Origin: Oehlia diaphana
Taxonomy: Eukaryota; Glomeromycota; Glomeromycetes; Glomerales; Glomeraceae
DNA length: 31,987 nucleotides
Direction: 5' to 3'
Assembly: GCA_003833135.1 (NCBI GenBank)
Contig: QZLH01000714.1
Location: forward strand, 33,786-65,772
The notes beneath the pieces are model-generated. The model was not told the DNA's origin, did no database searches, and saw nothing but the letters and a program-made list of their open reading frames with translations. Of the stretch, positions 1-31,987 are shown piece after piece. Every line of letters starts with the position of its first letter. Positions within the stretch are counted from its first letter, which is position 1. Position numbers and translations under genes: made by a program.

Positions 1-3000
1 CATACTCTTTCAAAACTGATTTTACAGGTCGACATAATCCTAAATCACTAATATAAATTTTATCCTTATTCTTACAATTATGATTTAAAATATTGCCATC
101 ATGAAAATCACAATGAATGAGATCGTTCTTATGTATCTCACTAAGTCCAGAAATAATTTCGTACAACATATATAATTTTTGATTCCAATTATTTTCAACT
201 ATTTTTGTTAAATTTTCTCTTAAATTACCTTTATTTGCATAATCCATTACTACCATATATTTTGAAGTATTTGGATCTTCTGTAAATCCATGTAAATATA
301 TAATATCATTCGAACCCAAAACACTTTTATGATATTCCCACTATAAAAAATAATAATAATTTATTAATATAAATAAATCTTAATTTAAATTAAAAATAGA
401 AAATAATATACTATCATACTTCTTTCAAAAATTCATTTAAATTTTCATTTAAATTTTTATGGCATTTAAGAATTACTTCTTCAACTTTATAATTCTTTAA
501 CCAAGTAGCTTTATATATAGTACCAAATCCTCCTTCATTAAAATATTCAACATTTTTAAATTTGTTATAAGGAATCCATTTTATTCCATTTTTAAGAATA
601 AAATCATTTATAATTGCATTTTTACTTTTTCCAAATCTATAAGTTTAAATAGTTAGAATTATATTAAAGCTTGTATTATAATTACTCAAAAATAAATTAT
701 TACTTACTCTAAAATTTAAATAAGAATTTAATGTGACAAAATCTTAGTTTTTGGATAAATATATATAATAACCTATAATTTACAACTTACCAACTAAAGT
801 AACAAATATTTTTTAAATGAAAAAATTCAGTTAACAAATGAATATTATATATAACAATAGAAATATAAATATCTTACAAGCTATATCGTGAGTAAGTTTT
901 TTAATAAAGAAATTAATTATTTTAAATATTATATAAATAAGTAATAATAGAATTAAATAAATAACTTACACCCTATATTATTAAAAAGAAAGAAATTAGT
1001 TAGTTTAAATGATATGCAAATATCATATAAATGAGTAATAATTATTAAATGAATAACTTATAACTTACAATCTGAAATCAGTTAGTTTAAATTATATGTA
1101 AATATTATATAAATAAGTAATAATAGAATTAAATAAATAACTTACAATCTATTAAATAAAAAATCAGTTAATTTAACTTATATGTAAATAATATATAAAT
1201 AAGTTATAATAGAATTAAATAAATAACTTACCTTCTATATTAATTAATAATTTTAATAAAAAATTTAATTAGTTTAAATTATATGTAAATAAGTAATAAT
1301 AGAATTAAATAAATAACTTACCTTCTATATTATTTAATAATTTTAATAAAGAAATTAATTAGTTTAAATTATATGTAAATAAGTAATAATAGAATTAAAT
1401 AAATAACTTACTCCCTATATTATTAAATAATTTTTTAAATAAGGAAATGAATTAGTTAAAATTATATGTAAATATAATACAAATAATAATAAAATTAAAT
1501 AAATAACTTACCCCCTATATTATTTAATAATTTTTTAAATAAAGAAATTAATTATATGTAAATATTATATAAAGGAAGTAATAATAAAATTAAATAAATA
1601 ATAAACAACTATAACTTACGGACTATTAAATAAAGAAAATGGTTGTTTAAATTATATTAATTATATTTAAATATTACATAAATAAGTAATAATAGAATTA
1701 AATAAATATCTTGTAACTTACTAACTATAATAAATTACAAAATAATTTTTATAATAAAGAAATTAATTAGTTTAAATTATATGTAAATAATATATAAAAG
1801 TAATAATGAATTTAAATAAATAACTAATAACTTACCATCTATTAAATAAAGAAATTAGTTAGTTTAAATTATATGTAAATATTATATAAACAAGTAAAAA
1901 ATAACTTACAGCCTATATTATTTATAATTATTTAAATAAAGAGATAAATTATACATAAATATTATATAAATAAATAATAATACAGTCAACTCTCTATAAA
2001 TTGCACTCTTCTTGGAACTGGATAAAAGCATGTGATTACAAAGGATACATTTATAAAGAGTAAATAATTAGAGGTCAAATATACTTGGGACTGAATCAAA
2101 GTGTGCATTTAAGAAGGGAATGTAATTATAAGTAGTGTATTTATAGAGAGTTGACTGTAGAATTAAATAAATAACTTATAACTTACGATCTATTAAATAA
2201 AGAAATTAATTAGTTTAAATTAGATGTAAATATTATAACAATAAGTAATAATAGAATTGAATAAATAATTTATAACTTACCAACTAAAATAAATTACAAA
2301 ATAATTTTTTAAATAAAGAAATTAGTTAGTTTAATTATATGTAAATATTATTTAAAGTAATAATAGAATTAAATAAATAACTTATAACTTACTATCTATT
2401 AAATAAAATAAAATTAGTTAGTTTAAATTATATAAAAAATATTATATAAATAAGTAATAATAGAATGAAATAAATAACTTACTTCCTATATTATTTAATA
2501 ATTTTTTAAAGAAATTAATTAGTTTAAATTATATATAAATATTATATAAATAAGTAACTTACCAACTAAAATAAATTACAAAATAATTTTTTAAATAAGT
2601 AATTAGTTAGTTTAAATTATATGTAATATTACATAAATAAAGTAATAATAGAATTGAATAAATAACATATAACTTACGATCTATTAAATAAAGAAATTCA
2701 TTGGTTTAAATTATATTTAAATATTATACAAATAAGTAATAATAGAATTAAATAAATAACTCATGACTTACCAACTGAAAAAAATTACAAAATATTTTTT
2801 TAAATAAAGAAATTAGTTAGTTTAAATTATATGTAAATATTATATAAATAAGTAATAATAGAATTAAATAAATAACTTGTCTTACCAACTAAAATAAATT
2901 ATGAAGTAATTTTTTAATAAAGAAAGTAGTAAGTTTAAATTATATGTAAACATTATATAAATAAGTAATAATAGAATTAAATAAATAACTTATAACTTAC

Positions 3001-5380
3001 GATCTATTAATTAAAGAAATTATTAGTTTAAATAATTAGTAAATATTATATAAATAAGAGCAATGACATTTATTACATAATATTTTAGGTATAGAAAAGT
3101 CTTAATTTATATGATGTAATATAAGATATTATTCACTATTACGTGGGGTGGGTTAATATTTATGGATATTATGTAATAAATGCCACTAAATAATAATAGA
3201 ATTAAATAAATAACTTATGGCTTACCAACTAAAATAAATTACAAAATAATTTTTTAAATAGAGAAATTAGTTAGTTTAAATTATATGTAAATATATAAAT
3301 AAGTAATAATAGAATTATTAAATAAATAACTTATGACTTACCAACTAAAATATATTACAAAATAATTTTTTAAATAAAGGAATTAGTTAGTTTAAATTAT
3401 ATATAAATATTGTATAAATAAGTAATTATAGAATTAAATAAATAATTTATAACTTACCATCTATTAAATAAGGAAATTAGTTAGTTTAAATTATATGTAA
3501 CCATTATATAAATAAGTAATAACAGAATTAAATAAATAACTTACACCCTATATTATTTAATAATTTTTTAAATAAAGAAATTGGTTAGTTTAAATTATAT
3601 GTAAATATTATATAAATGAGCGATGATAGAATTAAATAAAAATAAATGACTTATAACTTACGATCTATTAATTAAAGAAATTAGTTTAGACTATATACAA
3701 ATATTATATAAATAAGTAATAATAGAATAATAAATAATTTATAACTTACTGTCTATTAAATAAGAAATTAGTCAGTTTAAATTATATGCAAATATTATAA
3801 GTAAGAAACAATAGAATTAAATAAATAACTTATAACTTACAATCTATTAAATAAAGAAATTAGTTAGTTTAAATTATATGTAAATATAATAATAGAATTA
3901 AATAAATAACTTATAACTTACTATCTATTAAATAAAGAAATTAATTAGTTTAAATTATATGTAAATATTATATTATATAAATAAGTGGTAAAAGAATTAA
4001 ATAAATAACTTACTCTCTATATTAATTAATAATTTTTTAATAAAGATATTAGTTAGTTTAAATTATATGCAAATATTATATAAATGAGTAATAATAAATA
4101 ATTTACCTTCTATCATATTATTTAATAATTTTTCAATAAAGAATTTAGTTAGTTTAAATTATGTGTAAATATTATATAATTAAATAATAATAGATTATTA
4201 TAACTTACTATCTATTAAATAAGGATTAGTTAGTTTAAATTATATGTAAATATTATATTATGTAAATAAGTAATAATAGTATTACTTACTTCCTATATTA
4301 ATTAATAATTTTTTTAATAAAGAAATTAGTTAGTAGTTTAAATTATATGTAGCAATAAGTAATAATAGAATTAAATAAATAACTTACTCTCTATATTATT
4401 TAATAATTTTTTAAATAAAGATATTAGTTAGTTTAAATTTATATGTAAATATTATAACAATAAGTAATAATAGAATTAAATAAATAACTTACTCCCTATA
4501 TTATTATTTAATAATTTTTTAAATAAAGAAATTAGTCAGCTTAAAATTATATAAATAATAGAAATATAAATACCGTATAACTTACACCCTATAGTATTAT
4601 TAATTATTAATTAGCTAGATATAAATATAATATGAAAGTATTTATTGTAAGTTATATATATTACTCACAATCTAGTTATTTAAATTAAGAATATAATTAG
4701 TTGAAATATATAAAATGTTAAACAAATAAATACCATATATATATTGTAACTTACCATCTGTAATATAATTAATTATTAAATAGTTATTTAAATAAAGAAT
4801 TTAGTTGTTTGAATGTTATGTAAAATAAAGAAAGCAAAGAATTAAAGATTTAAATAACTGATAACTTACCAACTATATATTATTCATTATTAAATTAATA
4901 AATTATTTAGTTATATGGAATACAATAAAAATAATGAGTAATTCATTATTTGTTCAATTATATTAACTTACGAGCTAATATTTAATATAATTTTATATAA
5001 TATAGTTAGTCTAAATTATATTTGCATATTATATGGTATAATTATAGATAGTATTTAAATTGTTTATAAATAAAAATTTGATTTTTCAGCTTATTTGATA
5101 TACCTTTAGATTCCTTTGTACTACTTCCTTCAAATCCTTCAATATTACTGGGAACTAGTTTTGTTATATTGCAAATTCGGTTTAATTATATTTGATTATT
5201 TACAATTAAATTTTTTAATAAATAAAAACTTAATATTCATTTTGTTTACCTTCAGGTTTCTTGATATTATACAAAACTAGTTTTATTATATTGCAAGTTT
5301 ATTTTAAAAATTTTGAGTAATTATAATTTGTATTATATATTTATGCTATATGCTTTACCTTTACCAATATATTGACCCAT
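1..5380 (-). CDS. TKL-like protein kinase, 5' part of gene, 47 exons proposed (3' end outside window)
   Basis: Proposed exons on the minus strand: 5359-5380 (ATG), 5250-5276, 5104-5154, 41 micro-exons of 3 nt between 4974 and 790, a 1-nt exon at 708, 420-636, and 1-340, which runs off the edge. The last two exons are certain: they read as a kinase N-lobe and part of the C-lobe. In my numbering these carry the glycine-rich loop GGFGTI (residues 110-115), the VILK lysine (132), the catalytic loop HCDFHDGN (223-230; Cys replaces the usual Arg of HRD) and the magnesium loop as DLG rather than DFG (246-248). The intron 341-419 has GTATG and TATAG ends and joins KE to WEYH in frame. Exon lengths sum to 147 codons before the 1-340 exon, with no stop. 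The start and the micro-exons are inferred from splice signals and frame. The activation segment and the rest of the C-lobe lie outside the window. The substrate is unknown; such kinases are strongly expanded in Rhizophagus. Confidence 0.8.
708..1724 (-). other. Micro-exons 31-41 (3 nt each) and a final 1-nt exon
   Basis: Transcript order: 1722-1724 TTA; 1620-1622 TCC; 1512-1514 GGG; 1412-1414 GGA; 1322-1324 AAG; 1232-1234 AAG; 1146-1148 ATT; 1069-1071 ATT; 969-971 GGT; 878-880 CTT; 790-792 TTG; then a single A at 708, between TTTTAG and GTAAG. The kinase exon 420-636 needs two bases carried into it, because an in-frame TAA lies just upstream of its only plausible acceptor (CTTATAG). The array arrives with one base (G); the 1-nt exon adds A and the kinase exon adds A, giving Glu. 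The join reads Tyr-Trp-Ser-Phe-Glu-Phe-Gly-Lys. The intron before the 1-nt exon is 81 nt and the one after is 71 nt. Confidence 0.6.
1983..2157. mobile_element. 175-bp MITE, Tc1/mariner-pogo-like, in an array intron
   Basis: Terminal inverted repeats begin CAGTCAACTCTCTATAAAT at both ends, flanked by TA on each side (1981-1982 and 2158-2159). The flanks join into the normal unit sequence TAATAATAGAATT when the element and one TA are removed. TA duplication and a CAGT start are typical of pogo/Tc1-mariner MITEs. It has no coding capacity. It sits inside the intron between micro-exons 28 and 29. Confidence 0.85.
3064..3185. mobile_element. ~122-bp MITE in an array intron
   Basis: The ends form an imperfect inverted repeat: TGACATTTATTACATAATAT at the left, and the reverse complement of the right end reads TGGCATTTATTACATAATAT. 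Removing it returns the host intron (222 nt) to about 100 nt, the usual size. No clear target duplication could be read, so the superfamily is not assigned. Confidence 0.7.
3662..4974 (-). other. Single-codon micro-exons 1-15
   Basis: Each exon lies between a minus-strand AG and GTAAG and is exactly 3 nt long. In transcript order: 4972-4974 CTC; 4870-4872 TTG; 4755-4757 ATG; 4669-4671 ATT (donor GTGAG); 4586-4588 GGT; 4493-4495 GGA; 4388-4390 AGA; 4290-4292 GAA; 4209-4211 ATA; 4107-4109 AAG (donor GTAAA); 4014-4016 AGA; 3922-3924 ATA; 3841-3843 ATT; 3750-3752 ACA; 3662-3664 ATC. The introns between them are 78-112 nt. Read in phase 1 (last base of one exon plus the first two of the next), the run begins Ala-Leu-Asp-Asp-Trp-Trp and has no stop. 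Confidence 0.65.
5104..5380 (-). other. First three coding exons of the kinase gene (ATG exon, 27 nt, 51 nt)
   Basis: Minus-strand exons 5359-5380, 5250-5276 and 5104-5154 are separated by introns of 82 and 95 nt. Both introns end in nearly the same acceptor tract (TTGCAATATAA then T or C, then AAAACTAG), so they are probably duplicates of each other. All junctions are phase 1: the first exon reads MGQYIGK plus one G, and the next two read VLYNIKKPE and VPSNIEGFEGSSTKESK, each codon completed across the junction. A second possible donor in exon 1 (exon ending at 5365) keeps the same phase and would drop two residues. The frame is open upstream of the ATG for about 30 codons, back to a TAA, so an upstream exon is possible. 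Confidence 0.6.
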
Positions 5381-16822: not shown

Positions 16823-18640
16823 TTATTGTTTTAACATTTTGGGACAAACTTCTTCATTAATCTCTTGATTCTGCGAAGAAGTAACTCTTTCCAAGAATTT
16901 TTCATAATTGTTTCTAAAAGTTTCGGTAATGTCTGTATTATTTATAAGAGTTTGCAAATTTTCTAATAATTTAAGCCATCCGCTCCTATCTGGTTGTTCG
17001 GGTTGTTCATTCATGTCGGTATACTTTCTTTTATTATTATTTTGAACATTGTTAATTTCAGGTCTGTTATATTCATAATCTATTTTATATGTATTGCATA
17101 ATAATTCTAGCCCAAATAAATTTGGCAAACTAATTTCAAATAAAGGTCTTATTATCTCCTCATTGTTTACCAATGTTAAATAATGTAAATAATTTGCTTT
17201 AAATGGAATTCCTTCGTTACAAAATTCAAGGTAAATTGAGCAAATAGCATTGAATGCACATCTAGTAAGATGATCAGGAATTTCTCTTTCAAGAATTTCT
17301 TGTGATTTTAAATCTATCCATATTCTTGATTCCATAATATCCTCGAAACATTTTTGAGTAGCTTCGGAATTAGGTCCAAATTTTTTTAATATCCAATAAT
17401 ATAAATTCGAATGTACTGATAGAGACCTTATTTTTATCTTTTTTATTGAACTTAAATTATACCTAAAACCCACTTTATAACATTCTAAAGCATTTTTCAT
17501 AGCTTTTTCAGGTTGATCAATTCTATCATTCAAAAATTCTAATAAATCAGTTTTTCTATGACTTCTCTCCGGTTTAATAGCTTGAATGAGACATAAACTA
17601 GCAATAGCAGATTTTGATTTTTTCTTATGAATAATCTGAAACGATTCAAGTAAAATATCTCCAATTTCATTTAATTTATGTTCAAATAAATGAAGTGCTT
17701 CTTCCATGACAGAAGCAGTTAACTTAAATCCAAGATTAATGAGTTGTCTTAAGCGTTTCACAACAATCTTTGTATCAGGACGTTCCCAATCAACAGGAGG
17801 GGTCGGTGGGAATAAAATTAAGAGAGCCCCTTGCATCACGAGGTCGTTAACATCACTACAAATTTCATAATATCCAATTTCTTTCCATAAAGTTACTAAA
17901 TCGGGGTGTATCAAGATCGCCCGAGCTATAACATTGAGCTGACGACTATTTTCGTAACCATCTTTTGGAGGATATTCTTCATGAGCTCTCGATTGCATTA
18001 ATTGAATATATTCCACCGTATCTTCATGAGCCGGTTTTGGTCGTGGTGGAAAGGGTACGAATTTTTTATTTATTATTAAATCTTTAATATCAGCAAGATT
18101 TTGAAAGAGTTTTTGAGGTGCCTGATTAATTACTAAAGGGCCAGCTGATAGAAAATGAAATAATTCCATATCATTTCCTTTTATTACGAGATTTTCATCG
18201 TTTAAAATATTATAACCCGCAGTAATCAATTTTGTAAAAATTGGTAAGGGTAAATTAGATGCCCATGGAGAATTTAATTTTTTTTGAAAGGCTCGAATTC
18301 TATCAAAATCGACCTGATTTACATTATGCTCAATTTTGAGTTCAATCAACTTTTCATCATATGGTCCGAAATGCATCAAAAGACGCTGTATAAAATATCT
18401 TGAAATTATTGCGTTTTTACTTAACAAAGAATGTAACACTTCAGAGTTTAAAAAGCTGTTCCCAAGTCTTACTGCGTGAAAAAGTGCGTGTGCGTGTCCA
18501 TACTTAAAAATTAGCCAATTAGCGCGAGACTGTGGATCTTGTGATATTGCATACCATTTTTTATTAGTTAAGGTGAGTGAAATTGGTGTATCTACAAATT
18601 TGAATATTTCGATTCTTAACTCGTTGTAAAGAGACTCCAT
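16823..18640 (-). CDS. Large F-box-like protein, single exon
   Basis: The product is about 605 residues from the ATG at 18640 (MESLYNELRIEIFKF). A start 14 codons upstream at 18682 is also open, but it adds a lysine stretch encoded by an A-run, so I prefer the inner start. The first ~45 residues fit an F-box: a leucine/isoleucine-spaced helix (LYNELRIEIFKF), then SLTLTNKKWYAISQD, the usual place of the conserved Trp. F-box proteins bind Skp1 in SCF ubiquitin ligases and recruit targets through the rest of the chain. Here that is mostly helical and I recognise no LRR, Kelch or WD repeat. There is a proline-rich patch FVPFPPRPKP and a polar Asn/Lys/Glu-rich stretch before the C-terminal helix. 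No intron is needed. F-box and BTB-type adaptors are greatly expanded in Rhizophagus. The function is unknown; the assignment as F-box is moderately sure, that it is a real gene very sure. Confidence 0.85.
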   Translation of the reverse strand: MESLYNELRIEIFKFVDTPISLTLTNKKWYAISQDPQSRANWLIFKYGHAHALFHAVRLGNSFLNSEVLHSLLSKNAIISRYFIQRLLMHFGPYDEKLIELKIEHNVNQVDFDRIRAFQKKLNSPWASNLPLPIFTKLITAGYNILNDENLVIKGNDMELFHFLSAGPLVINQAPQKLFQNLADIKDLIINKKFVPFPPRPKPAHEDTVEYIQLMQSRAHEEYPPKDGYENSRQLNVIARAILIHPDLVTLWKEIGYYEICSDVNDLVMQGALLILFPPTPPVDWERPDTKIVVKRLRQLINLGFKLTASVMEEALHLFEHKLNEIGDILLESFQIIHKKKSKSAIASLCLIQAIKPERSHRKTDLLEFLNDRIDQPEKAMKNALECYKVGFRYNLSSIKKIKIRSLSVHSNLYYWILKKFGPNSEATQKCFEDIMESRIWIDLKSQEILEREIPDHLTRCAFNAICSIYLEFCNEGIPFKANYLHYLTLVNNEEIIRPLFEISLPNLFGLELLCNTYKIDYEYNRPEINNVQNNNKRKYTDMNEQPEQPDRSGWLKLLENLQTLINNTDITETFRNNYEKFLERVTSSQNQEINEEVCPKMLKQ

Positions 18641-18682
18641 TTTTTTTTTTTTTGTGGAATTGTTTCGATAAAAATTGAGCAT

Positions 18683-21600
18683 TTTTATATATTTGATCAG
18701 AAGGGAGCGGAGTGATCAACATTGTACAATATATCATTCAAACGTCCCAAATAGGGGAACCAATAAGTTCATTCGGGATATGCATATTTTTACCCCAAAT
18801 GTATAAAAAAAGGCAAGCCAATTTCCGCTATTACATTTATTATTTAAATAGCAATTAATTATTTCTAGTAAACAAATTTTATGACAATTAAAATGATCAA
18901 CAAATTATCTCTTATATATAAAAATTTTTTTAAGGCAAATTTCTTCTTGTTAATATATGTTAACATTAAACATTTTTGTATTAAACTTCTTAAGCTTTAA
19001 AATATAATAATATTAAATTATTTTATTATTATTATTTAGTTCGGAATTAATTTACTGAGTTGTGATTAATTTCATTCACACCCTTTCAAACATGGCTAAA
19101 TTTGGACATATTTCAAAGTAAATAAATGTAACACAGCCCCATAATCAATCCCTTATTTACTTTGAAAAAAAATTTTGTGTAATTATTTAAAAAAATTAAT
19201 CTATGCAAGTTTTTCGACCAGTTCATTCATTCATTCATTTTGATTGTTGTTTGTAACAGTTATTCATTTGTTTTCATTACACGTTGTTTTACCATATGAT
19301 TTCCTATATCCTTTCATAAGCGAATATGTCCGTTTTTCTTAAAAAAAACGAATGATGATTAGTATTTGAATGTAAGTGTTTACAAATAGAGAAATAAAAA
19401 TAAATATTTTTGGCATAACGGTTTCTTTTATTTGTAGTATCTTTATTTACTGACTTTTTTATTAATTACATATTATTCCTATACACAAAGTAAAATATAT
19501 CGACAAGAAATTTTAGCAGGACCAAAGAAATTATAAGGAAGCTTATTGTTAATGCAGGTTACTAAAAAATTTTTATATTTTGAAATTTTTTTGAATTCAA
19601 ATCAGAAATTCCGATGGCGTTATTAATAATACTATGTAAGTAATTATTTAACAAGAATAATATTTCATTCTATTGTTTTAAAAAGGAGAACCAGTTTTTT
19701 TTTACTCTGCATTAATAAAATCTTAATTTTTAGTACCCGAGTCAATAGCTAAGAAGGATATCGTGCATAATATAACTCCGTATATAGTGATTTATTTTAA
19801 CTGGAGGAAAAATTGTACATAAGGAGAATTATACAAAGCAGCCAATTAACTTTTTTCGGTCTTATTCCGCATAGTGCACGCATACCCATACGTATATATA
19901 TAAAATCGATAAATGATGATTCTTTATTATCTTAGATTATTTAGGTTTTAATTGTTTAATAAAAAAGGAAAGAGTTTAAACGAAATAAACATTTTTTAAG
20001 TAAATTTTTCGAATTAATATATTATTCTTATATGAAATAAAAATATTATACTTTTTTATTAATCGAAAAAATTTTATAACTATCATCGTAAATTTTATTA
20101 ACGTTATTAGCATGACATTTTTTGGTAGGTTTGTAAATTTTGTTCGCTAAATCCTCCTTGTCCCCCAAAATTGGAGATAACCTGCGGTGTAACATTTATA
20201 ATTATTTCACTTTGTTAACAATCCCTTTTATAGTTACAGTAAATTGCGTGACGCCATATAGATTACACATAATTAGTTAATGTGGTCAACGGCAGTTATT
20301 TTTTTTTTTTTTGATTTTCCTTTTTTGATCTTATTTATCCATTTTGAAAATCGCTTTGTTATGATTTCCTAATTTCGTCGATTAAAGTTTATTACGGTTT
20401 TGTACATCATCCGAATGACACGTTGATCTTTCATATTCGACAAAAGAATCTAGATTAACTATAATGCAATGAATGACAAATATTCCAAATTTTGATCATG
20501 TGGTCATTTTAATAAGTATTTTCGTAATTAAGCTTACTTTGAAGTAATTACCATATTTATTAAATTATATTTTTAGGAAACATTACCCATAATAAACATA
20601 ATAAAGCTTAATTAAAAACGAAAAATAAAAGATATCTTGTCAAATTTCTTCAATGAAAAAAAATGAACCAAATTAAGAAATAAAGTATTATATTCAATAA
20701 TTTTTATAAATTAATATTTGGTGTAATTAAAGATTCCGGAAATTTACCTTACTTTATTATTTCAAAAATGGAAAAAAAATGTAAAAAATTAATATTTTTT
20801 CTTCCCTTTTTTATTTTCCTTTTTTTTTTTAAAACATACATACATACAAGGTATTATTGTGGTCTTATAATTAAGGTGAAATGTTGATGGTCAATGTTTG
20901 GTTTACCATATTTAATTTCGGTATCACCATCTGCTGCGCCAAGTCTAAAATACTTTTTTTTAATTTTTCGTCTTTCGCTTTGTACCGAAAAGAATCGAAT
21001 AAAAATGTCATTATTCATATTACATATTTTTTTTTTTATATAAAATCTACATTAAGAAATGGGCATCTGACAGATGAATGATGCAACAACGCATATTTTC
21101 TCTTTCAAAAAGAAGCTTCAATATAATACAAAGAAAATAATCAAAGATCTACACTTAAAAATAGCATATGACACAAAGTCAGGATTAATGTAAATTAAAA
21201 AAAAAAAAAATGAATGAATACTTTTATTATTATGATATCAAATTTTGTAAATATTTTTTTTTTTTTGAATGAATACTTAAGTGGAAATAAAAATAATAAG
21301 TCACCAAGAAAAACTCATCATGTTATTCATGTTTCGCCTACAAACTTTGTTCGATTAATATTTTTATGGTAATTATGAATATGATATAGATATCTCATTA
21401 CGCATTATTGTTATGCATATTATAACGTTTTCTTTCTTTTAACTCCGTCTTCAGTTATTTAAAAAACAAAACAAAATAGGAAGAAAGAAATGAGACAAAA
21501 AAAGAAACTTCTTTTCTTTGTTTCATTAGAGACTACTTTAAAGGATAATTCCAAACTTTTACAAAGTTTGCAAGCAATTCACTTTATAGATTCGTTCTAA

Positions 21601-27082: not shown

Positions 27083-27765
27083 ATGCGAATTATTTGTATT
27101 TTTTATAATTATATAAGTATTAACTGGGCACGAGGAACTTTTAGAGATTTGTTATTGATAACAGAATTAATGTACCAGATGAAGAAATACCGTAAAAGAG
27201 AAAAGCCCTTCGACATTAAAGTAGGTGAAACTTCAGATGAATGGTCTTCCGTTGAGGATAGCTTTCCTGAAAATGAGGATTACCTAGTAGTTCAGTTAGC
27301 ACTTCAGTTAAACTTTTTTCTGTTACACCTCATGCAGCTGGTTGCGAACGGGTTTGGTCAAGTCTTGGTTGGATATACGGTAAGAAAAGAACTCGTTTAA
27401 GCTTAAATAAAATTGAAAATATATACAAACTTTCAGCCTATTATTATCATGCAAATGTGAAAAAAGAATTACCACATTGCAGTGTGGAAAAATCTGCTGT
27501 AGAAATTCATCAAATTTTTGTTGACGCTCATTTGAATCCCGACCAAGACCATCTTGAAATAGAAGATGATTTGCCTAACTATTACATTAATGAGGAAGAA
27601 ATAGTAATTGATGAGGAGGAAGAACTGATTTGGATAGATTTTGAATTAGACGCATTTATTAATAATTTAGAAGATATAATTGAAGATAGTATAGATGGTA
27701 TAGAGAATGAAAATGATGAAGTAGAAGAATCTATGGGTGAAAATGTGAATGGAACCAGCTGCTGA
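27083..27765 (+). pseudogene. hAT transposase, C-terminal dimerisation region, frameshifted
   Basis: From about 27295 one frame reads the hAT dimerisation signature (LFSVTPHAAGCERVWSSLG) and continues through GWIYGKKRTRLSLNKIEN and HLNPDQDHLEI to a very acidic tail that stops at 27763. Upstream, another frame reads WARGTFRDLLLITELMYQ and KREKPFDIKVGE up to about 27308. The two join by a one-base slip close to the T-run at 27312-27318. The ribonuclease H-like catalytic core and the BED finger are missing from the window, so this is a 3' remnant. Families of this type are common in Rhizophagus. hAT identity is confident from the motif; non-function is inferred. Confidence 0.8.
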
Positions 27766-28664: not shown

Positions 28665-29657
28665 ATGCGCAATTTAAAAAATCTTCTCTTTGGAATTATT
28701 CTTATCATCTTTTGGTTCAGCATTTGCTGACGAATATGATCCTAAACAAGACGTTTTCGATCAAGTAATTAATACGTTGGTTCCTTTACTTATAGTTTTT
28801 TATTTAAAGAATTTGAAGAACATTTAAAAAAATCAGGTGAAAAATTCAGATGATGTAGAAGCAACACGAAGTAAAAGCATGCTCGATAAAATTAGAATAC
28901 CTGTTGAAATTAGACGTGCTTTCGATAATTCTCTTTTTTATTATCCCTTTTTGTTCTACCAAGTATAGTTTTTCATAAAACCACGAGAAATTCAAAACAC
29001 CCCTCTGGATTTCAATCTTCTCCAGAGTACAGCAGGATTTGTTTTCATTTCGATCATAATCAATTAGGCCAGGCAAAAAAAATTTTTAGATTCTCGTGAC
29101 ATAAAATTTTAAAAATGACCCGGCTGGCCGGCAATTTTTTTGTAAAATTTTTTTACGCCACATTGGCCAATAACTTAAAATCACGTGATGAAAATTTTTA
29201 CTATAGAAAAAAAATTTCCATTTTTCGAAAAACTGACCCGGCCGGGTCACGAGAATCTAAATTTTTTTTTGCCCAGCCTTATATTGGTTGGAAACAAAAG
29301 GATGATAGTATCTTCGGGTGGATAGCTTTTTGTATATTACCATTCATAATTGATTTATGTTATGTATTTTCTGATATTAGCTTCCTGTCTTACATCTGGA
29401 GTACTATTCCCATTGGTAATTTCAAAGATGGTTTTATTTATATATATGCAGTAACTGGAATCTTAGGTGTGATTTTTCTGCTTTACATTATTTTCTTTTC
29501 TTTTATAGATTTATATAAAATCAGATGTTTTTATGGTAAGTACCTCATTACAATATATACATGCAGTAACTGGAATCTAAGGTGCACTTTTTACCTTATT
29601 TACATAGGTTATACAGTGCATTACCTCTATACTCAACTTTTAGAAAAATTGAAATAA
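28665..29657 (+). pseudogene. Broken membrane-protein gene interrupted by a MITE
   Basis: Starts with a signal peptide-like MRNLKNLLFGIILII (28665). A one-base shift in a T-run near 28710 moves it into a frame reading FGSAFADEYDPKQDV, then a hydrophobic stretch LVPLLIVFYL. In that frame are stops at 28825 (TAA) and 28966 (TAG), with coding-like sequence on both sides (DDVEATRSKSMLDKIRI). At 29067 a MITE is inserted. Beyond it the frame continues through GWIAFCILPFIIDLCYV and FIYIYAVTGILGVIFLLYI, two likely membrane helices. A 72-nt intron (29536-29607, GTAAG to ATAG) leads to a short last exon with stop at 29655. I do not recognise the family. One frameshift, two stops and the insertion make it non-functional. 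Confidence 0.65.
29067..29278. mobile_element. 212-bp PIF/Harbinger-like MITE with TTA target duplication
   Basis: The inverted ends are GGCCAGGCAAAAAAA and (complemented right end) GGCTGGGCAAAAAAA. Both run on into TTTAGATTCTCGTGAC and a CCGGCCGG-type core, and are flanked by TTA at 29064-29066 and 29279-29281. The three-base TTA duplication and GGC start fit PIF/Harbinger. Removing the element with one TTA joins ISIIIN to YIGWKQKDD in frame, which marks it as an insertion into a gene. A worn copy lies at 23673-23875. Confidence 0.85.
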
Positions 29658-29845: not shown

Positions 29846-31987
29846 TTAATTGGTTTCATTATAAATTGTATCAGGTACATGACGGTGTGATTTATATTTT
29901 TTAACAGCATATTCAGCTACCTTTCCAGTAATTCCTTTTCTGTAGATATCCATATACCTTCAAGATTTTCTTGCAAACTTTCTAATTGAAACCATTCATT
30001 GCCATAAAAGCTTGCTGCTGTTCTAACGATATCAGTTGATTTGACGGCTATGCTTGAATATATTTTGAAATATCCAGATTGATCATCATAATTTATATCA
30101 TTTTCGGTCAAAAATTCTTCAAAACCTACACGAAAATTATCAAAACCTTCCTTATATAGATGATGAATATCGTTATCTTGATTTATTTGGGAAACTTTTG
30201 TCTCAATCTCATTAACGTTAAATTCCCATAGAAGATTTCTAAAGCCACTGGATCTTCTAGACTTAGGTTTAGCCGCTTTTTGTTTAGCAGTCAAATAATA
30301 ATGTCATACCTATTGCGTTAATTAAAATTTTAATATATATAACGATAAAAATTGATTTGATGCAAATAGATTGTATATTAGTAATTGAACATACTGTATT
30401 TAACATTTGCGGAACATAATTCTTCTTGTTTGTCATACGGTATGGATTTTTAACATTACTTTTATGTAAGGTCTCGTATGTCTCCGTTGATATTCCATTC
30501 ATTGAACCGTAAAGTCGAATTGATGAAACTACATGATATCGAAGTACATGTAGTCTCAGTATTTTACAGCTACTTGAAGAATACTCAGAAAAAATATCGA
30601 CAAATTCTTAGCAGAATTCTGTGATAGATGTCCAATAAAAATCGATATTTGAGTATTTGACTAACTGAAATTTAATGTTAAAGATTTAATTAATATATTT
30701 ACCTGCAATTCTACCAATTCCATATCTGTATATGATTCACAGCACAACTTCATATATATCGTTAAATAAAGATAAAAAACATTGCACAATCTCTTGCATG
30801 GTATTCCTCCTTCTTTATAATTTTCGTATAAATTATCAATAACGAAAATTATCACTTTCATTATATTTCAGTAATCATTTGCAGTGAACTTTGAGATATT
30901 TTCTAAGCCATTCTTTAAAATTATCAGTCCTGGATATCATGGAATTGCACAAAGTCTGTGATCTATCTCCTTAACTGCCTTAGCGCTAACTTTTTGTTAC
31001 AAGTATTCTTGAGTAAATTCTAGGAAATACTTTGTTATTCCAAAATCGAGCATATGCATCCGATCTGGAACAGTCGCCTCATAAATATTGAAATCAACAA
31101 ATTTCCAGAAAAAATTAAAATTCATATGAATCAAAAGTTCATTGGCTCGATTTATATCGATAGCTTCTTTCATTTTTTCTGGTGTTCGTAAATCAACATT
31201 ATTTAATATCATATTACTAAGGTCTTCGTTACTTATCAGGCAAAAGCAACAAGGCCATTTCGATGTTGATGGGAGATATGTAGTAGTAAAAGTTGCAGCT
31301 TCCACCAAATCAGTGAAGATAACTGATATTTTTGGGATGAATGGACATACTTCGTTTTTAACAACAAAATGCATATCAGTTTGATTCAATATTGGCGATA
31401 ATAATATTTGAAGGCATCTTTGAAATACTTGTCTCTGTAATTTTCAAAATGATTCTGAATTCTTTATGGTGTTATCCTTTACTTTTAATTTTGGCAAATA
31501 ACTGACAAGTACTTTAGAATTTGGTTTATTTTGCTGCCAACTAGGAATATTTCCTAGCGAAATATAAATGAGATGTTCTGATGTTTTACCAAAATGGTCA
31601 CATGTGGTTGAATCTGCATAAAGGATTATTGATAACAGATAATTATCGATAGGAATTTTTGATTCCATGATGTTCCACCAATCGCTTTCAAATTGTTCGC
31701 CATAAGTTCTAATCGATGTATTTCGATATTTTAAAACAAATTTCTCATTGATATCAGACTGAAGGAGTAGAACTTTAATTCCGTAAATTATCAGTTGATA
31801 ATAAAAATTATAATCTCTACCCTCAAAATTTGTGATAGATACTGTTTTGAATTTCATATATGAAAATTCGTTAAAATCAAGGAATTTCTATCCCTTCTTG
31901 GTATTTATTGGTAGCAGATTTTCATCAGTGGAATTGCGACTGTTATTGATCAACTTAATTAATCTATCTCCACAAGAATTAGATAAC
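29846..31987 (-). pseudogene. Decayed Plavaka/KDZ-type transposase (3' part; 5' part beyond the window)
   Basis: A single minus frame from the window edge to about 30703 reads continuously except for five stops: 31888-31890 TAG, 31444-31446 TGA, 30997-30999 TAA, 30937-30939 TGA, 30868-30870 TGA. Recognisable stretches are LLSIILYADSTTCDHFGKT (probable first catalytic Asp), SKWPCCFCLISNEDLSN (a CxxC pair) and ATVPDRMHMLDFGITKY. After a short break the similarity goes on with GSMNGISTETYETLHKSN at about 30500-30440. A likely intron (GTATGT to AATAG) ends near 30295, then comes SGFRNLLWEFNVNEIE at about 30245. The tail RKGITGKVAEYAVKKYKSH (29950-29880) is in yet another frame. I match the family from memory of fungal Plavaka-like proteins. 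With five nonsense codons and frame breaks it is not functional. Confidence 0.7.

Follow-up and report, generated by a model that had tools for sequence, protein, structure and literature searches.

A predicted array of single-codon exons precedes the kinase domain in a gene family of the fungus Oehlia diaphana

A minisatellite of approximately 4.3 kb in a kinase gene of Oehlia diaphana is, we conclude with high confidence, a series of 41 exons of one codon each, closed by an exon of a single base. Their splicing in order is predicted to yield a 42-residue segment before the kinase domain. The gene lies in the window, that is, the whole stretch of 31,987 nt analysed here (contig QZLH01000714.1, positions 33,786 to 65,772, assembly GCA_003833135.1). 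Across the sequences compared, the single-codon-exon array is a trait of the gene family, with ends that are conserved and a middle that is not, and part of these kinases is probably written by the fungus codon by codon. The array is very likely a minisatellite of codons, carried by introns and safe for the reading frame, that would provide a hypervariable segment before the kinase domain. At the scale of the genome, there is good reason to believe in an expandable fungal script encoded by splicing, with more than 1000 single-codon exons, arrays of up to 54 of them, a hypervariable segment for each kinase, and the intron as the repeat unit.

The predicted features of the gene are collected in Table 1. 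A sequence-only reading of this DNA had described 41 consecutive units, each composed of AG, three bases and a GTAAG donor (with one GTAAA and one GTGAG), and all 41 were recovered on the minus strand: 39 donors are GTAAG, the unit at 4671 has GTGAG and the unit at 4109 has GTAAA. In sequence, each triplet has the size and flanks of an internal micro-exon, being shorter than approximately 51 or 25 nt and bordered by spliceosomal sites (AG and a GTRA donor in 41/41). The introns between units measure 71-114 nt in 38 of 40 cases, and the remaining two, of 222 and 274 nt, hold inverted repeats, in agreement with their earlier description as enlarged by MITEs. These MITE-like inserts are two different elements, neither of which touches the splice sites, and other intron inserts are present in several paralogue arrays. 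The earlier statement that every intron has an ACTAAC-like branch site was right for most introns and too strong in its 'every': 34 of the 42 window introns have the strict motif CTAAY/CTGAY/CTTAC no more than 60 nt from the acceptor (shuffled control: mean 9.1, maximum 18). Directly beyond position 1 of the window (below contig position 33786) the assembly consists of N, and the 3' end of the gene is out of view.

Table 1 Predicted features of the kinase gene, in window coordinates
Feature	Position	Strand	Basis
Exon 1, with ATG, MGQYIGK, 22 nt	5359..5380	-	Sequence; paralogue comparison
Exon 1, possible alternative end after 16 nt, phase unchanged	5359..5380	-	
Exon 2, 27 nt	5250..5276	-	AG|...|GTAAAC, open in phase
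Exon 3, 51 nt, last base is one base of a split codon	5104..5154	-	Open in phase; related paralogue exons
Array of 41 predicted single-codon (3-nt) exons, each followed by its own intron	791..4974	-	AG-N3-donor in 41/41; stop-free in the phase of the flanking exons
Array triplets 1-14: CTC TTG ATG ATT GGT GGA AGA GAA ATA AAG AGA ATA ATT ACA			
Array triplets 15-28: ATC GGT ATG TTG TTG ATC TTG TTG ATC TTG GAA ATA TTG ATC			
Array triplets 29-41: GCT ATG TTA TCC GGG GGA AAG AAG ATT ATT GGT CTT TTG			
Predicted 1-nt exon (A), restoring the frame into the kinase exon	708..708	-	AG|A|GTAAGT; paralogue comparison
First kinase exon, FGKSKNAIINDF... to ...LNEFLKE	420..636	-	Reading frame open and in phase downstream of the 1-nt exon
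Second kinase exon, WEYHKSVLG..., continuing beyond the window edge	1..340	-	Relative P0001 matches PF07714/PF00069
MITE-like insert in one array intron, 21-nt perfect terminal inverted repeats	1981..2159	.	
MITE-like insert in another array intron, 20-nt terminal inverted repeats (95%)	3064..3185	.	

Exons 1-3 leave one base over, so that each codon of the array takes its first base from the end of one triplet and its other two from the start of the next, and no single micro-exon contains a whole codon in the phase of the ATG exon. Translated in this phase, which exons 1-3 set, the window array has no stop, as had been claimed, and reads ALDDWWKRNKENNYNRYVVDLVDLGNIDRYVIRGKEDYWSFE and then FGKSKNAIINDF in the kinase exon. 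Joining exon 3 straight to the kinase exon, with the array omitted, breaks the frame, which the single-base exon before the kinase exon would mend. Such an exon was implied by the 124 nt that the sequence-only reading had expected between the flanking exons, and it could be located as AG|A|GTAAGT at 708. Across the 35 loci its base is A 33 times and G once (L039, at about 1802 in gene orientation), and its length was found by rule in 34; the 35th locus, L038, has T at this position and a damaged downstream acceptor. Ten loci have full 5' arrays, and eight of them show the ATG exon, whose length (13, 19 or 22 nt) is 1 mod 3 in every case; in L010 and L014 there was none within 700 nt. In the loci where it was seen, the exons between the ATG exon and the array are multiples of three (exon 3 was read by hand in the window, L011 and L018, and is 0 mod 3 in all), and the 3-nt exons share its phase in 8/8 cases, forming a long run of symmetric exons in one phase. 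Retention of a single intron would introduce an in-frame stop for 340 of 343 array introns. One 6-nt micro-exon (two codons), which keeps the frame, was observed in L033 at about 1186 in gene orientation.

The spacing between acceptor and donor is almost constant. At 278 of 290 GTAAGTTA sites, drawn from 20 paralogue loci together with the initial 9.9 kb of the window, the nearest YAG lies exactly 3 nt upstream (elsewhere at nine sites, and none within 30 nt at three), and a chance origin of the 3-nt spacing is therefore excluded. Anchors of 30 nt placed in intron interiors, blind to the splice sites, led to an AG-N3-donor unit in 340 of 357 cases in ten full arrays, where the neutral expectation for an intact unit at the measured anchor divergence is approximately 35%. 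The 17 anchors without N3 were judged by eye to comprise four true losses (two in L012, one each in L017 and L026) and one regex artefact, the rest being misplaced; when only best matches were accepted, N3 followed 59 of 61 anchors and was absent at two. Loss of a splice site or deletion has affected about four units; a deletion in L012, which took out one micro-exon and the splice sites around it, seems to have merged two introns into one without disturbing the frame. Array introns vary in length (mean 95 nt, s.d. 11, for the 324 of 343 introns not exceeding 130 nt) and the exon is constant at 3 nt; weak donors such as GCAAGT and GTATGT still lie exactly three bases past the acceptor. The view of the minisatellite as an exon-intron array is thus supported by exact spacing despite intron drift, by splice letters kept above the neutral level, and by its recurrence in 35/35 loci.

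Array donors also differ from ordinary ones. A perfect GTAAGT is present in 627 of 744 array units (35 loci) and in none of 24 ordinary donors of the same kinase genes, the latter counted with exon patterns that fix no donor letters; stronger donors would be expected if those of the array must work without help from the exon. Possible GC-AG introns occur inside several arrays, with GCAAGT in L011, L014, L034, L037 and L043 and GCAAGC in L030. When the last three introns were compared column by column in 21 loci, conservation (majority base 0.88 in the intron, against 0.94-0.97 for splice letters) proved a weak discriminator, and the anchor and stop tests were used for this reason.

In the predicted phase, a triplet ending in T may not precede a triplet starting with AA, AG or GA, and this rule permits a test of the triplet joins. 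No stop was found at 669 neighbour joins in 33 loci, against a mean of approximately 30.9 in within-array shuffles (minimum 13 of 5000), and the result was the same in the first 21 loci (0 vs 14.8) and the later 12 loci (0 vs 16.1). With two more loci the count was 0 of 709 (35 loci; 37.4 expected from independent base frequencies). As these 709 joins share descent and are not independent, the split sample and a count of distinct triplet pairs served as safeguards; the latter yielded 321 pairs and not a single stop type, where 23.9 were expected (minimum 13 of 2000). On the other hand, joins that skip units carried stops at the shuffled level: 33/636 with one unit skipped (29.6 in shuffles), 27/603 with two (28.2), 26/571 with three (27.0) and 20/540 with four (25.7, with 10% of shuffles as low or lower). 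The triplets in reversed order gave 31 stops, and the remaining (third) phase gave 89. At the joins, 52 of the 64 codon types occur, one-step neighbours of stops among them, and the 12 absent ones comprise, besides the three stops, nine sense codons, of which seven have C as their last base. The proposal of a series of single-codon exons gains from this contrast between neighbour and skip joins. Because neighbour joins are stop-free and skip joins are at the shuffle level, selection appears to act on the exact, ordered and complete chain of triplets. A neighbour-join stop test of this kind can give strong evidence for the splicing of tiny exons without RNA.

These results bear on other explanations of the block. 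It is highly unlikely that it represents a neutral, AT-rich minisatellite within one giant intron or between genes, removed whole and with splice-like motifs that simply belong to its repeat unit. A repeat finder does call a tandem array here and the intron sequence is itself fairly conserved (0.88 majority base), but a neutral repeat gives no account of zero stops at neighbour joins beside normal numbers at skip joins, of splice letters retained far above the neutral rate, or of a frame that is broken when exon 3 meets the kinase exon directly; where a neutral minisatellite should have no position-specific constraint, the array has it. A reading of the micro-exons as mainly a bank of alternative-splicing cassettes, from which each transcript would take a different subset to produce many isoforms, is very unlikely. 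The frame would be kept whatever number of units was skipped, and schistosome micro-exon genes are described as permitting such excision (PMC4015677). However, donors in the arrays are mostly strong, and since stops persist at joins that skip between one and four units, such subsets are unlikely to be what selection mainly favours.

The same DNA could also be translated in frame 0, with each triplet as a codon and a last exon of 5 nt (AGTAA), as several Rhizophagus irregularis gene models seem to imply (LLMLMIG...KLSKFGKS). We consider this extremely unlikely. SKFGxS is found in 18 of the 120 listed models (the best 120 of 351), and frame-0 stop triplets are rare, 3 of 702 against 23.6 predicted by column composition, an expectation that is weak because the triplets are few types in many copies. 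Yet AGTAA would itself produce a stop in the reading phase that the ATG exon sets, and in 3 of 34 loci the donor after it would have to be GC rather than GT. Of the three stop triplets, those of L028 and L037 are followed by a perfect GTAAGT, and frame 0 offers no explanation for the stop-free neighbour joins. The ordered chain of single-codon exons, read in the phase of the ATG exon, is the interpretation that we retain below.

The arrays are widespread in the genome (108.8 Mb in 1672 contigs searched). The pattern TAGNNNGTAAGTTAT has 1346 occurrences (46 for the backward control), compared with 18 when its gap is four bases (control 59) and 29 when it is two bases (control 46). A DNA search with the kinase exons returned 40 scored matches, namely the window and at least 39 others with 81-92% identity, and a search of the genome with the kinase protein gave 150 scored matches among 1616 candidates. 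We analysed 35 loci, consisting of the window, its 20 best paralogues, six possible intron-free picks, six loci from the pattern list and two more. AG-N3-donor units were present in all of them, at 3 to 54 per locus by a rule whose base-content filter was relaxed without reference to frame, some arrays being clipped by contig or slice ends; L042 has just six scattered units by this rule. Most close paralogues begin the array with CTC TTG ATG ATT GGT or a near variant and end it with CTT TTG A, and the middle varies among them in length and content. No processed copies were detected: the joined kinase junction had no match with up to three mismatches, and the six possible intron-free picks, 52-66% identical in the kinase piece, all carry arrays as well.

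As for the kinase itself, the relative P0001, 85% identical to the window kinase over 185 aa, matches PF07714 at 1.5e-42, and the best relatives of the window kinase (83-85% identity) are R. irregularis proteins. Values of dN/dS for the kinase exons (median 0.57, range 0.31-2.04) indicate moderate purifying selection in 14 of 21 loci, the calculation omitting L010, L013, L019 and L021 with stops or frameshifts and L012, L017 and L026, where the script missed an exon border. The four loci with stops or frameshifts, together with L038 and its damaged acceptor, resemble pseudogenes in their kinase part, yet none of them has a stop at an array join. Elsewhere in the window, two open stretches on the minus strand (31000-31443 and 31447-31887) match the Plavaka transposase profile PF18759, and one on the plus strand (29100-29654) matches DUF6720 (PF20480). 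An open frame of 630 residues (16826-18715, minus strand) and an open stretch of 162 residues (27277-27762, plus strand) have no Pfam match, and the latter resembles the end of a hAT transposase.

Public Rhizophagus gene models are disturbed at the position of the array. Among public proteins, none was found to contain the predicted phase-1 array peptide; of 11 candidates the sole match was P0001, which starts with the exon that follows the array. Many models of relatives in R. irregularis, R. diaphanus and R. clarus are truncated or improvised at the border between array and kinase. Among the best 120 of 351 relatives, 10 start exactly at the FGxS exon that follows the array, 18 join through SK (AGTAA), 10 keep an intron tail ahead of the 1-nt exon and continue across the donor of that exon, and the remainder start or join otherwise. 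We take these border variants as compromises made by gene finders. In a few models, for example P0007, P0016, P0017, P0033 and P0082, SKFGKS is preceded by long stretches with many I, G, L, V, R and M residues, which look like array triplets read in frame 0.

How such an array might be processed can be outlined. Because a lone 3-nt exon would be too short for self-definition, the introns are probably removed stepwise. Each splice would add one codon to the growing 5' exon and bare the next strong GTAAGT donor, in a process akin to recursive splicing that leaves one codon per step. With the repeat unit being an intron plus a codon, gain or loss of units would change the protein by whole codons without shifting the frame, and the introns would supply homology for further duplication of units. 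Comparison of introns in 15 loci is informative here: the best partner of an intron lay within its own array for 162 of 394 introns of array middles and 14 of 113 of the ends (chance share 7%). The array ends are thus apparently common to loci, and the middles are often locally made. From the local similarity of introns in array middles, we infer turnover of units by duplication. The array segment is rich in R, D, F, N and W, and it may serve as a hypervariable linker or as a recognition or binding surface of a signalling kinase.

If the interpretation is correct, working limits on exon size and exon definition would be overturned, and for every kinase the spliceosome would need approximately 40 consecutive faithful splices with 3 nt between introns. 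It would also represent a new route to hypervariable proteins, in which frame-safe changes of length are carried by introns and the segment could grow, shrink and mutate freely without frameshift, as a codon-by-codon generator of diversity. Furthermore, it would account for the fact that models of this kinase family break off or are improvised at one and the same border in R. irregularis, R. diaphanus and R. clarus, and it would provide a natural system in which to test how ordered and how faithful splicing is.

We know of no string of single-codon exons, and open-licence literature on micro-exons, fungi, and Rhizophagus kinases and introns yielded no system of consecutive single-codon exons. 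In PMC10234402, on the long-read annotation of R. irregularis, the terms micro-exon, microexon and mini-exon have 0 occurrences. Single-nucleotide exons are reported in Arabidopsis APC11 (PMC4674806) and in Fusarium CYP621A (PMC12940212), so extreme exon size is, on these accounts, no bar. As presented there, they resemble the 1-nt exon predicted for the array in being constitutive, far below the size for exon definition, and essential to the frame. They are, however, isolated and supported by RNA, whereas the present case is a gene family in which dozens of consecutive 3-nt exons are predicted ahead of a 1-nt exon.

In recursive splicing, ratchet points (AG|GT) are zero-length exons that leave nothing in the mRNA. 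The array is similar in the juxtaposition of 3' and 5' splice sites (3 nt apart at 278/290 GTAAGTTA sites), but each step is predicted to leave one codon, and the stop test argues that the triplets stay. Exons of schistosome micro-exon genes and aphid bicycle genes range from several to dozens of bases. Both groups are described as fast-evolving families with many small symmetric exons (PMC4015677; PMC9168663), nearly all internal exons of the bicycle genes being in one phase (PMC9168663). The array shares such exons and such a family setting with them; unlike theirs, its exons are 3 nt long with none holding a whole codon, and the exon-intron unit is repeated in tandem up to 54 times. The product here, judged by its relatives, carries a protein-kinase domain, and we do not class it among micro-exon or bicycle genes. 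Coding minisatellites and tandem-repeat proteins vary in length by duplication of units, and the array would resemble them in this respect. In contrast to coding minisatellites, the repeated DNA here is intron, with one coding codon per approximately 98 bp, so that the array peptide need not repeat and the frame would be kept.
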